A DNA stretch of 33,352 nucleotides from an uncultured Bacillota bacterium (GTDB taxonomy: Bacteria > Bacillota_I > Bacilli_A > RFN20 > CAG-826), in assembly GCA_949298195.1 (NCBI GenBank), contig CASFVT010000023.1, positions 1-33,352 on the forward strand. Reading direction: 5' to 3'. Shown in pieces: positions 10,478 to 23,671 of the stretch (position 1 is the first letter of the stretch; each line of letters begins with the position of its first letter). The position numbers and the translations under genes are program-made. The notes beneath the pieces were generated by a model. It did no database searches. It had not been told where the DNA came from and was given only the letters and a program-made list of their open reading frames with translations.

Positions 10478-11086
10478 ATGTCCAAGTACACTGCTTCCAA
10501 GTGGAAGCGCTCCCGTCACCTCGGCTTCTCGACCCTCGAGAGCGGTGACGAGCTCAAGAAGCGGGCCTACGGCCCCGGCCAGCATGGCCAAGACCGGAAG
10601 AGGAAGCCGTCCGAATACGGGGCCCAGCTCCTCGAAAAGCAGAAGCTCCGCCACCTCTACGGCGTCAATGAGCGCCAGTTCCGCCGCCTCTTCGTCCTTG
10701 CGAAGAAAGAGAAGGACACCGTCACCGGCCTCGCCTTCTTCCGCATCCTTGAGAGCCGGCTCGACAACCTCGTCTACCGGATGGGCTTTGCCAGGACCCG
10801 CGCCGCGGCCCGCCAGCTCGTCAACCACGGCCACGTCACCGTCAACGGGAAGAAAGTAAACATCCCGAGCTACCTCTGCTCGGTCAACGACGTCATCGCC
10901 TTCAAGGAGGACAGCCCCCTCAAGGTCGTCCGGGAATCCCTAGACGGGAAGCCGACCGTTCCCGCTTACGTGAGCGTCGACGCCGAGAAGATCCAAGGCA
11001 CCTTCACCCGCCTTCCTGAGCGCAATGAGCTCCCGAAGGACATCAACGAAGCCCAGATCATCGAGTTCTACAACCGGAAGCTCTGA
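10478..11086 (+). CDS. rpsD: 30S ribosomal protein S4
   Basis: A 202-residue S4, the primary 16S rRNA-binding protein that starts 30S assembly. The N-terminal part holds PGQHGQDRKRKPSEYG; the S4 RNA-binding domain follows (RLDNLVYRMGFARTRAAARQ, then VNHGHVTVNGKKVNIPS), and the C-terminus is IIEFYNRKL. The four-cysteine zinc motif of some S4 proteins is absent. It is monocistronic: own promoter, long leader, and a terminator 16 nt after the stop. It is divergent from ezrA. Confidence 0.98.
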   Translation: MSKYTASKWKRSRHLGFSTLESGDELKKRAYGPGQHGQDRKRKPSEYGAQLLEKQKLRHLYGVNERQFRRLFVLAKKEKDTVTGLAFFRILESRLDNLVYRMGFARTRAAARQLVNHGHVTVNGKKVNIPSYLCSVNDVIAFKEDSPLKVVRESLDGKPTVPAYVSVDAEKIQGTFTRLPERNELPKDINEAQIIEFYNRKL

Positions 11087-11102: not shown

Positions 11103-11127
11103 AGCCGGCCCCTGGTCGGCTTTTTTC
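11103..11127 (+). terminator. Terminator after rpsD
   Basis: AGCCGGCC pairs with GGTCGGCT (one G-U pair) around CCT, and a T-run follows. Confidence 0.88.
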
Positions 11128-11205: not shown

Positions 11206-12213
11206 ATGTCCTATCGTAGCCAACTGAAGAAACTGACCGGGAGCGCCATCCTCATCGCCCTCGGCCTCGTCCTCCCCCTTTGCTTCCACGCCATCCCCAA
11301 CGGGGGGAGCATTTTCTCCCCGATCCACATCCCGGTTCTCGTCGGCGGCTTCCTCTTCGGACCGGCCTATGGAACGGCGATTGGCATACTCGCTCCCTTG
11401 CTGAATAGCCTCGCCACCGGGATGCCGCCCCTTTACCCGGTCCTCCCCGGAATGATGGTGGAATGTGCCGTCTATGGGCTGGCCAGCGGACTCTTCTTCC
11501 GCCTCATCAAGACGCGGAAGTTCGGGCTCGACCTTTACCTCAGCCTCATTGTGGCGATGGTCCTCGGCCGCTTCGCCGGGGCTTTCGTCAACTATCTCGT
11601 CTACATGGGGACGGAGAATCCCTATGGCTGGCAGTCTTTCGTCAATGCCTATCTCCTCGTCGGTTGGCCGGCCATCATCATCCAACTCGCCCTCATCCCC
11701 CCACTCGTCTACGCCCTCTTCCGGACACGGCTTTTCACGGAAGCCGACCGGGTACTCTTCCCGTCGTTAGAGCGGAAGAAGACGGTCGCGAAAGAGACGG
11801 CCCACTTTTCATCCCTCGCCGCGGATTGGGCGAAGAAAGGGCCAGTCGACATCGAAAAGGGTCGGCAAATCCTCGCTCCGCTTGGCGATATAGCCTCCCA
11901 TAAGGTCCTCGACGTCGGCTGCGGAACCGGGGTTTTGATCCCTTCCTTTCTTTCCCTCGGGGCGATTCCGACCGGACTCGACGCGGCCAAAAAGATGCTC
12001 GAGGAAGCCCGGAAGGCCTACCCACGGGTCGAGTTCGTGGAAGCCGATTTCTACGCCAGCCACCTCGAGGCCGGAGCTTATGACGAACTCGTGGTCTACG
12101 ATGCCTATCCACACTTCCTCGATGTCGACTCCTTCGCCCAGGAAGCCCGCCGCCTCTTGAAGAAAGGCGGGCGGGGCTTCTCGTCGCCTTCGATCATCCC
12201 CTCGAAAGCATAA
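11206..12213 (+). CDS. ECF transporter S-component fused to SAM methyltransferase
   Basis: Residues 10-172 form a membrane domain with five or six hydrophobic helices, including HIPVLVGGFLFGPAYGTAIG and a Pro-rich loop, as in vitamin-binding S-components of ECF transporters. After a linker (about 173-230) comes a class I SAM-dependent methyltransferase: motif I VLDVGCGTG (234-242), acidic LDAAKKM after strand 2, and VEADFY after strand 3. The reading frame breaks near residue 323 after LKKGGRG; the rest of the domain continues one base over to 12362 (see next entry). I take ATG 11206 rather than an upstream start because it opens the membrane domain and fits the -10 box. The ligand and methyl acceptor are unknown; a salvage protein that imports and modifies a small cofactor is speculation. 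Confidence 0.75.
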   Translation: MSYRSQLKKLTGSAILIALGLVLPLCFHAIPNGGSIFSPIHIPVLVGGFLFGPAYGTAIGILAPLLNSLATGMPPLYPVLPGMMVECAVYGLASGLFFRLIKTRKFGLDLYLSLIVAMVLGRFAGAFVNYLVYMGTENPYGWQSFVNAYLLVGWPAIIIQLALIPPLVYALFRTRLFTEADRVLFPSLERKKTVAKETAHFSSLAADWAKKGPVDIEKGRQILAPLGDIASHKVLDVGCGTGVLIPSFLSLGAIPTGLDAAKKMLEEARKAYPRVEFVEADFYASHLEAGAYDELVVYDAYPHFLDVDSFAQEARRLLKKGGRGFSSPSIIPSKA

Positions 12214-12362
12214 ACGCCCACCATCACCGGCACGGGGGAAACGAACTCGCCCGCATAATCGGGGAGCCAACCAGGGAAAGTCGGTATTTCAAGCCCTTTT
12301 TCCGCCTCCTTTCCTCATCTAGCGAGGGGGATGACTACTTCATGTTACTGAAAAGGAAATAG
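12168..12362 (+). pseudogene. Out-of-frame C-terminus of the ECF-methyltransferase gene
   Basis: One base out of phase with the upstream frame, this segment reads LLVAFDHPLESINAHHHRHG, then GNELARIIGEPTRESRYFKP and FFRLLSSSSEGDDYFMLLKR, with a TAG at 12360-12362. It is exactly what should follow the GG-hydrophobic strand of a class I methyltransferase. Adding one G in the GGGCGGGG run at about 12166-12176 restores a protein of roughly 386 residues. This could be a genuine frameshift, a slippery site, or a sequencing or assembly indel. Confidence 0.75.
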
Positions 12363-22972: not shown

Positions 22973-23671
22973 TCATTTCCTTTCTTGACGGTTGTTCCGA
23001 AGGGAGAGCTTCAGAAGGGGTCGACGGACCGCCGGGACGATGATCCCGGCGATGAGGGCCTCCCCGAGGGCCCCGAGGAGAAGCGAGGCGGCGAAGGTGA
23101 TTCCCACCCCGACGGCAACGTCCCCTTCCATCCGGAAGTAGGCCCCCGTCTCGACCGGGAAGAAGAGGAAGAGGGCCAGGAAGACGAGTCCGGTGTGAAG
23201 GAGGGTCAGGAAGAAAGAGAGGAGGCCGTTTCCGAGGCCAGACGATAGTTTAGGACTTCTTCGGGCAAGAGAAAAGGCAAGCCCCGCCAAGAAACCGAAG
23301 AGGAGGCGTGGGAGGATGCTGACCCACGGGTAGACGAAGAAGGCGTTGAGGCCACTCGCGTTCACGAAAGCCTGGATCATGGAGGTGAAGCCGAAGGCGA
23401 AACCGTATAGGAGCCCCCGCCGGGGGCCGCCGAGGGAAGCCCCGATGAGAACGGGGACGTGGAGGAGGGTGAGGGCCAGCCACGGAAAGACGAAGAGATA
23501 CCCGAGCTGGGGGATGAGGCCCATCGTCAGGATGATGGCGATGAGGATGGCATCGAAGGCGATCTCGGAAGTCTTCCCCTCTTTCCTTTTCCGGTCTTTG
23601 AAGTAAAAGGCGATGATTAGGGCCAAGAAGGCGAAGATGAAAGCCCAAGTGAGCAGCGAACGGTAGTCCAT
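22973..23671 (-). CDS. ECF transporter S-component, possibly pantothenate
   Basis: A 232-residue membrane protein with about six hydrophobic helices. After an N-terminal helix and a charged stretch (KDRKRKEGKT), the S-component pattern follows: AFDAILIAIILTMGLIPQLG, then VFPWLALTLLHVPVLIGASL with GGPRRGLLYGFAFG, as in substrate-binding units of energy-coupling-factor importers. These units need a shared EcfA-A'-T module, not encoded here. It lies 3 nt after coaX, which phosphorylates pantothenate, so pantothenate is the most likely ligand (a PanT-like role). That is context inference; ligand residues were not identified. Confidence 0.78.
   Translation of the reverse strand: MDYRSLLTWAFIFAFLALIIAFYFKDRKRKEGKTSEIAFDAILIAIILTMGLIPQLGYLFVFPWLALTLLHVPVLIGASLGGPRRGLLYGFAFGFTSMIQAFVNASGLNAFFVYPWVSILPRLLFGFLAGLAFSLARRSPKLSSGLGNGLLSFFLTLLHTGLVFLALFLFFPVETGAYFRMEGDVAVGVGITFAASLLLGALGEALIAGIIVPAVRRPLLKLSLRNNRQERK

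Follow-up and report, generated by a model that had tools for sequence, protein, structure and literature searches.

The gene at positions 11206 to 12213 (plus strand) of the window, by which we mean the whole stretch of 33,352 nucleotides that was analysed, joins an ECF transporter S-component to a class I SAM-dependent methyltransferase. This fusion is a genuine, lineage-specific union of a conserved operon pair and constitutes a new variant among the ECF S-components. The gene neighbours of its relatives point tentatively to modification-coupled uptake of a nickel-related compound, a chelate, by the fused protein. We give this reading somewhat less than an even chance and regard it as the leading hypothesis, not as a result.

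Domain architecture and frame of the window gene

The window gene is a single ORF of 335 amino acids, extending from the ATG at 11206 to the stop codon at 12211–12213 on the plus strand, and comprises an S-component, a linker, and a truncated methyltransferase. The features of the region are listed below.

10478–11086, plus strand: rpsD (ribosomal protein S4), the upstream neighbour, outside the system (Pfam)
11104–11124, plus strand: terminator-like hairpin and T-run after rpsD (pattern match only)
11206–12213, plus strand: open frame of the fusion in this assembly (ORF and Pfam)
11206–11745, plus strand: ECF S-component domain, residues 1–180, with PF12822 at 8–167 (Pfam, model, and alignment)
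11746–11793, plus strand: linker, a DR..LFP stretch present in the fused proteins and absent from the separate genes (alignment)
11794–12174, plus strand: class I SAM methyltransferase, the part in the main frame, with the motifs VLDVGCGTG and YPHFLD (Pfam and alignment)
12165–12180, plus strand: G-rich tract, the site of the frame break relative to the intact congeners (alignment)
12178–12362, plus strand: conserved methyltransferase C-terminus in another frame (LLVAFDHPLESINAHH...FMLLKRK, stop at 12362) (translation and alignment)

The hairpin and T-run behind rpsD form a sequence pattern suggesting that the fusion gene is its own transcription unit.

Residues 8–167 matched the Pfam family PF12822 (ECF_trnsprt) with 67.8 bits against a cut-off of 30.7 (E = 1.5e-18), and the CbiM/NikM family was absent from the Pfam hits of the protein. 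Modelled with AlphaFold (m227296988969; pLDDT 82.5), the N-terminal domain adopted the six-helix S-component fold. In a Foldseek search, the best 12 PDB matches of this model were all ECF S-components (TmRibU, PanT, FolT, ThiT, and RibU), with TmRibU as the closest fold (TM 0.71/0.79) and modest E-values (best 4.8e-3). A comparison of the S profile with the sequences of solved S-components yielded weak TmRibU matches only. The family match and the fold matches bear out the earlier note, which had recognized an ECF S-component in the N-terminus. Its term "vitamin-uptake type" is apt for the fold. It does not extend to the subfamily, as the window S domain reached the cut-off of none of the named vitamin models (the best similarity was to the FolT family TIGR04518, where the window scored 31.8 bits and L106 scored 42.6 bits, both against 60), or to the gene neighbourhoods, in which nickel and metal genes occur. 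A search for riboswitches as a clue to the ligand returned none above the Rfam thresholds in the window or in 19 related loci.

A comparison of 37 methyltransferase-linked S domains showed residues H28, H41, M83, E86, and Q160 to be invariant in every one, and H28 was kept in only 52% of the S domains without a methyltransferase link. A metal or a ligand rich in nitrogen would fit the two invariant histidines, as far as sequence conservation indicates. Both termini of S-components lie inside the cell, so that the fused methyltransferase would sit where SAM is available. The genome of the window encodes one EcfT (G000:C19) and two adjacent ECF-type ATPase genes. The window also contains a second PF12822 S-component, at 23033–23563 on the minus strand.

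Residues 235–323 matched Methyltransf_11 (58.9 bits against a cut-off of 21.2; E = 8e-16), and Methyltransf_25 was likewise above its cut-off. With the SAM motif I VLDVGCGTG present, the domain qualifies as a class I methyltransferase with a Rossmann SAM-binding domain. Profile searches thus found both domains above the Pfam cut-offs and in one frame, in the order that the earlier note had given. The methyltransferase part of the full AlphaFold model matched UbiG and similar enzymes. The family shares Methyltransf_11/25 with UbiG/BioC/CpaM-type methyltransferases, and UbiG is among its nearest solved structures. It is nevertheless separate from them: a PHF motif follows its SAM domain, it is either fused with an importer or paired with one, and it stayed below the equivalog cut-offs of UbiG (38.1 of 102.95 bits), BioC (36.2 of 184.95), and CpaM (37.6 of 180). 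There is weak similarity to CpaM and BchM. In divergent members of the fusion, the SAM motif is altered to VGTGKG and VGSGLG (L010, L011).

The reading frame had been described as running from 11206 to 12362, which needs correction: it ends at 12213, and the stop codon at 12362 belongs to a different frame. As the stop at 12213 precedes the conserved C-terminal part, the window copy does not hold the whole catalytic domain in one frame. The translation of 12159–12362 yields the conserved methyltransferase end, which aligns with the C-termini of the intact congeners; approximately 60 terminal residues are displaced to this other frame. Six other window genes (rpsD, ezrA, iscS-like, thiI-like, tyrS, and groEL-like) align with their congener homologues in a single frame, and the break in the fusion gene therefore appears to be isolated, whether it is a mutation or an assembly error. 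The displaced end has kept its conservation well, so the break is probably recent or artefactual. We infer that the frameshifted window copy is functional now or was so recently.

Origin of the fusion and the separate gene pair

An intact single-ORF form of the fusion, 383–389 amino acids in length, is encoded in nine other congeneric genomes, each of a different species (L002–L004, L006–L011), and a partial one lies at a contig end in G035 (L005). Because nine other congeners encode the intact form, the joining of the two domains is more than chance. When 70 S domains were placed in a tree, the fused ones, eleven in all, formed one clade (support 100/99), nested in a supported group (96/98) that otherwise consists mostly of clostridial S domains, many of them with a separate adjacent methyltransferase gene. 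Within the class of the window, the S family occurred in 81 of the 395 sampled genomes, with the fused methyltransferase confined, in that sample, to the genus of the window. The tree topology indicates that the fusion arose once, in this genus. In the window and several congeners, it lies directly downstream of rpsD, a shared adjacency that fits vertical descent.

The Clostridia sample comprised 391 genomes, from the class of G461 (an uncultured Roseburia locus). The profile of the fused S-methyltransferase protein (E ≤ 1e-30) matched 166 of them, nearly all through the S part, while a search with the methyltransferase profile placed that family in 30 of the 391. Approximately 24 of these 30 clostridial methyltransferase genes directly adjoin an S gene by coordinate comparison. 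The S gene usually comes first with the methyltransferase gene abutting it, and the order is reversed in one genome (G841). Directly ahead of the pair in L035 and L037 stand ecfA1-ecfA2-ecfT. The fusion appears to formalise an older operon, an S gene followed by a methyltransferase gene, that is still separate in Clostridia. The possibility that the two domains are always separate genes, raised earlier against the fusion, does not hold in view of the nine further fused species, although in the other lineages seen the genes are separate and adjacent. A 373-amino-acid open frame in G737 was considered as a second independent fusion and rejected, as it crosses the S gene in a frame other than that gene's own; the S-component and the methyltransferase are separate genes in that genome.

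Gene neighbours and the candidate cargo

Genes for nickel enzymes, their maturation, and metal uptake accompany several of the separate pairs, a setting that indicates transition metals and nickel in particular. G737 encodes, on one strand, hypB, an NAD(P)/FAD/4Fe-4S oxidoreductase of approximately 900 amino acids, hypA, the S-component, and the methyltransferase. A [NiFe]-hydrogenase large subunit and HypA stand beside the pair in L108/L109. In G857 and G536, the pair and a [NiFe]-hydrogenase operon that includes HypA and a HypF-like gene (HypF by eye) are oriented divergently. NikA/NikB-type genes occur near the pair in L115 and adjoin it in G786; in G729, the pair is flanked by NikA/NikB-type genes on one side and DUF4198-CbiO-CbiQ genes on the other. 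CbiO/CbiQ and DUF4198 are the neighbours in L116. CODH/ACS genes (delta subunit) and a CooC-like ATPase are located approximately 3 kb from the pair in L032. The methyltransferase also occurs as a standalone gene, after hypA-hypB in L100 and beside hypA/hypB in L089. Other standalone copies lie behind the gene for an ABC-importer binding protein of the FecB/BtuF type, and the permease of the FecBCD-type operon scores best against BtuC. Corrinoid-type neighbours, assigned by eye, are a CobU-like gene close to the L037 pair and a CobT-like gene close to the methyltransferase operon of L098.

Of 42 methyltransferase loci, 4 had HypA or HypB within 7 kb, against a rough expectation of 0.2% per locus, and 20 of the 26 S-methyltransferase pairs were without a nickel gene inside that distance. 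The contrast in nickel neighbours between the pairs and the S-only loci gave p = 0.02 with a gene set picked after inspection of the loci. LarA beside the S-kinase loci was dropped as support for nickel, since counting it as a nickel gene erases the contrast between methyltransferase-linked and other S loci (p 0.47). In the Clostridia sample, HypA accompanied the methyltransferase moderately (17 of 30 positive genomes versus 14 of 49 others; p = 0.018), and the positive genomes tend to be larger. The check for cofactor-pathway genes beside homologues, suggested earlier, thus turned up genes related to nickel and other metals in some loci and did not indicate a vitamin pathway.

Two further observations concern these loci. 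In L115 (5016–7700), two more class I methyltransferases flank the pair beside the NikA/NikB-type genes. In L055 (2419–4850), a NifH-like gene, a NifD-like gene (the latter by eye), and a FecBCD-type importer lie next to the pair, and a link to a tetrapyrrole or metal cofactor is possible there.

In the window's own genus, HypA was present in 5/5 genomes of the window's fusion clade (G000, G002, G012, G030, and G035), in 7/8 congeners with a standalone methyltransferase, and in 2/18 congeners with neither form of the enzyme. It was found in 0/6 genomes of the divergent fusion clade (G025, G018, G032, G028, G021, and G011), which means that HypA cannot be the only factor served by the cargo. 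The genomes with the window-clade fusion or the standalone methyltransferase differed from the rest in HypA content with p = 6e-7, a value from a post hoc grouping that ignores relatedness; all methyltransferase-positive versus all negative congeners gave p = 0.002, likewise with relatedness ignored. A hypB-oxidoreductase-hypA trio, with an NAD(P)/FAD/4Fe-4S oxidoreductase of 948 amino acids, is encoded in the window's genome (G000:C7:103760–107640; L122:8761–12640) and also in G002 and G012, and the oxidoreductase occurs with hypA or hypB in G014 and G005. We rejected a [NiFe] hydrogenase as the client of HypA/HypB in the genus, as none was found in its 37 genomes, the window's own included. 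The nickel client of the trio may be the oxidoreductase or another enzyme.

Seven of the eight standalone methyltransferases in the genus adjoin a FecB-type binding protein, and congeners with the Hyp trio encode one of two arrangements, the fusion or a FecB-type ABC importer followed by the same methyltransferase. The Hyp genes and the methyltransferase are thus retained across a change of importer type, an argument for the enzyme acting on the imported cargo and not on the transporter. The gene neighbours and this swap are the reasons for proposing a nickel-related cargo. In the proposed mechanism, the S domain would capture the cargo outside the cell, dock on the shared EcfA-EcfA'-EcfT module of the genome, topple, and release the cargo inside. 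The tethered cytoplasmic methyltransferase at the C-terminus, of a small-molecule type, would then methylate the cargo or its organic ligand, and methylation would trap the cargo or free what it carries. The cargo would most likely be a nickel chelate or its ligand, feeding a system linked to HypB/HypA. Transport, the nickel theme, and the methylation of the cargo are what we infer from these comparisons. The coupling of modification to uptake that the earlier note had suspected is supported by the conserved gene pair, the single origin of the fusion, and the importer swap, and falls short of proof.

A vitamin or a corrinoid, such as a cobamide precursor or a folate-like compound, could instead be imported by the same architecture and methylated afterwards, with the nickel neighbours reflecting shared anaerobic cofactor clusters. 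PF12822 is the family of the vitamin S-components, and the resemblance to FolT and TmRibU fits such a cargo, as do the BtuC-like permease, the CobU-like and CobT-like genes, and the weak similarity of the methyltransferase to CpaM and BchM. Against it stand the subfamily scores below the vitamin cut-offs, the lack of vitamin riboswitches in the window and the 19 loci, and the nearby HypA/HypB and [NiFe]-hydrogenase genes, which are not known to contribute to the salvage of vitamins or corrinoids. On balance, we judge this cargo to be unlikely.

Synthesis and uptake genes travel together in metallophore loci, which the constant methyltransferase beside either an ECF S-component or a FecBCD importer resembles. 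The enzyme could accordingly build a metallophore that is exported and retrieved by the S-component or the FecBCD importer, in which case the fusion merely joins the two activities. However, clustering of the neighbours revealed no other chelator-biosynthesis or export gene recurring near the pair, and a chelator made by one small methyltransferase alone is unlikely, which renders this scheme improbable.

It is more doubtful still that the methyltransferase domain serves to sense SAM or to regulate, gating the transporter, and not as an enzyme for the cargo. The altered SAM motifs of the divergent fusions would suit a sensor, and the S-component fold does occur joined to signalling domains (PMC11109136), but most lineages encode the methyltransferase separately, some of them without any S-component, and with the SAM motif conserved. 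That the window gene is a pseudogene, or its break an assembly error that makes this copy uninformative on function, is suggested by the displaced C-terminal end and is very unlikely given the conservation of that end, the intact window genes checked, and the nine congeners with an intact fusion.

Relation to known systems

The fusion and its relatives share the family model and the six-helix fold with PF12822-type S-components such as RibU, PanT, FolT, and HmpT, as well as an EcfAA'T module encoded elsewhere in the genome or, in relatives, ecfAAT immediately upstream. They differ from these proteins in the C-terminal methyltransferase, the invariant H28/H41/E86, the metal and nickel neighbours, and the lack of a match to a vitamin subfamily model. 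With NikMNQO/CbiMNQO they would have in common an ECF-type uptake linked with nickel, and one pair (L116) lies beside CbiO/CbiQ; the S-component of those systems is NikM/CbiM, whereas here it is PF12822 with a methyltransferase partner. ABC importers of the FecBCD/BtuCDF type, in which the same methyltransferase family follows the binding-protein gene, replace the fusion in HypA-bearing congeners, but they are unrelated to ECF transporters and their genes are separate from the methyltransferase. SAM-dependent chemistry on an imported metal chelate has a precedent in HmuW-type enzymes, class C radical SAM methyltransferases that free iron from imported heme (PMC10404700). The likeness is one of analogy only, HmuW being a radical SAM enzyme and unrelated in protein and transporter.

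The S family has other partners as well. Members with a C-terminal P-loop kinase-like domain occur in L067 (1076–2236), L069 (2393–3523), and L073 (4973–6094); the last of these and the adjacent-gene versions in L081 and L082 adjoin LarA-type racemase genes. Two S-components end in DUF1893 (TM1506), in L071 (3245–4228; by eye) and L072 (5926–6876; Pfam match). A protein of approximately 360 amino acids (YPKM..QD..KL.YQ) adjoins S-components in L033 (4867–5937), L059 (6672–7739), L060 (5021–6121), L086 (3987–5156), and L087 (4278–5351), and the L059 copy had no Pfam match. These partners were rejected as clues to the ligand, since they agreed on no single pathway.

We found no description of the S-methyltransferase pairing in the literature, where subscription papers were thinly covered, so that this is weak evidence of novelty, and no assigned substrate for the large S family. 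The covalent union of an S-component with a methyltransferase for small molecules, which Clostridia conserve as an operon, would be an instance of uptake coupled directly to chemical modification. It is possible, if rather doubtful, that a branch of PF12822 has turned into a nickel-chelate importer whose methyltransferase modifies the ligand, coupling metal release or ligand trapping to transport, and that it feeds a HypA/HypB system serving a flavin/iron-sulphur oxidoreductase and not a hydrogenase. ECF transporters carry vitamins, and nickel and cobalt enter through the separate NikM/CbiM type. The nickel link, if true, would represent a second ECF route to metals and would suggest a substrate for an S family that is present in 166 of the 391 Clostridia genomes.
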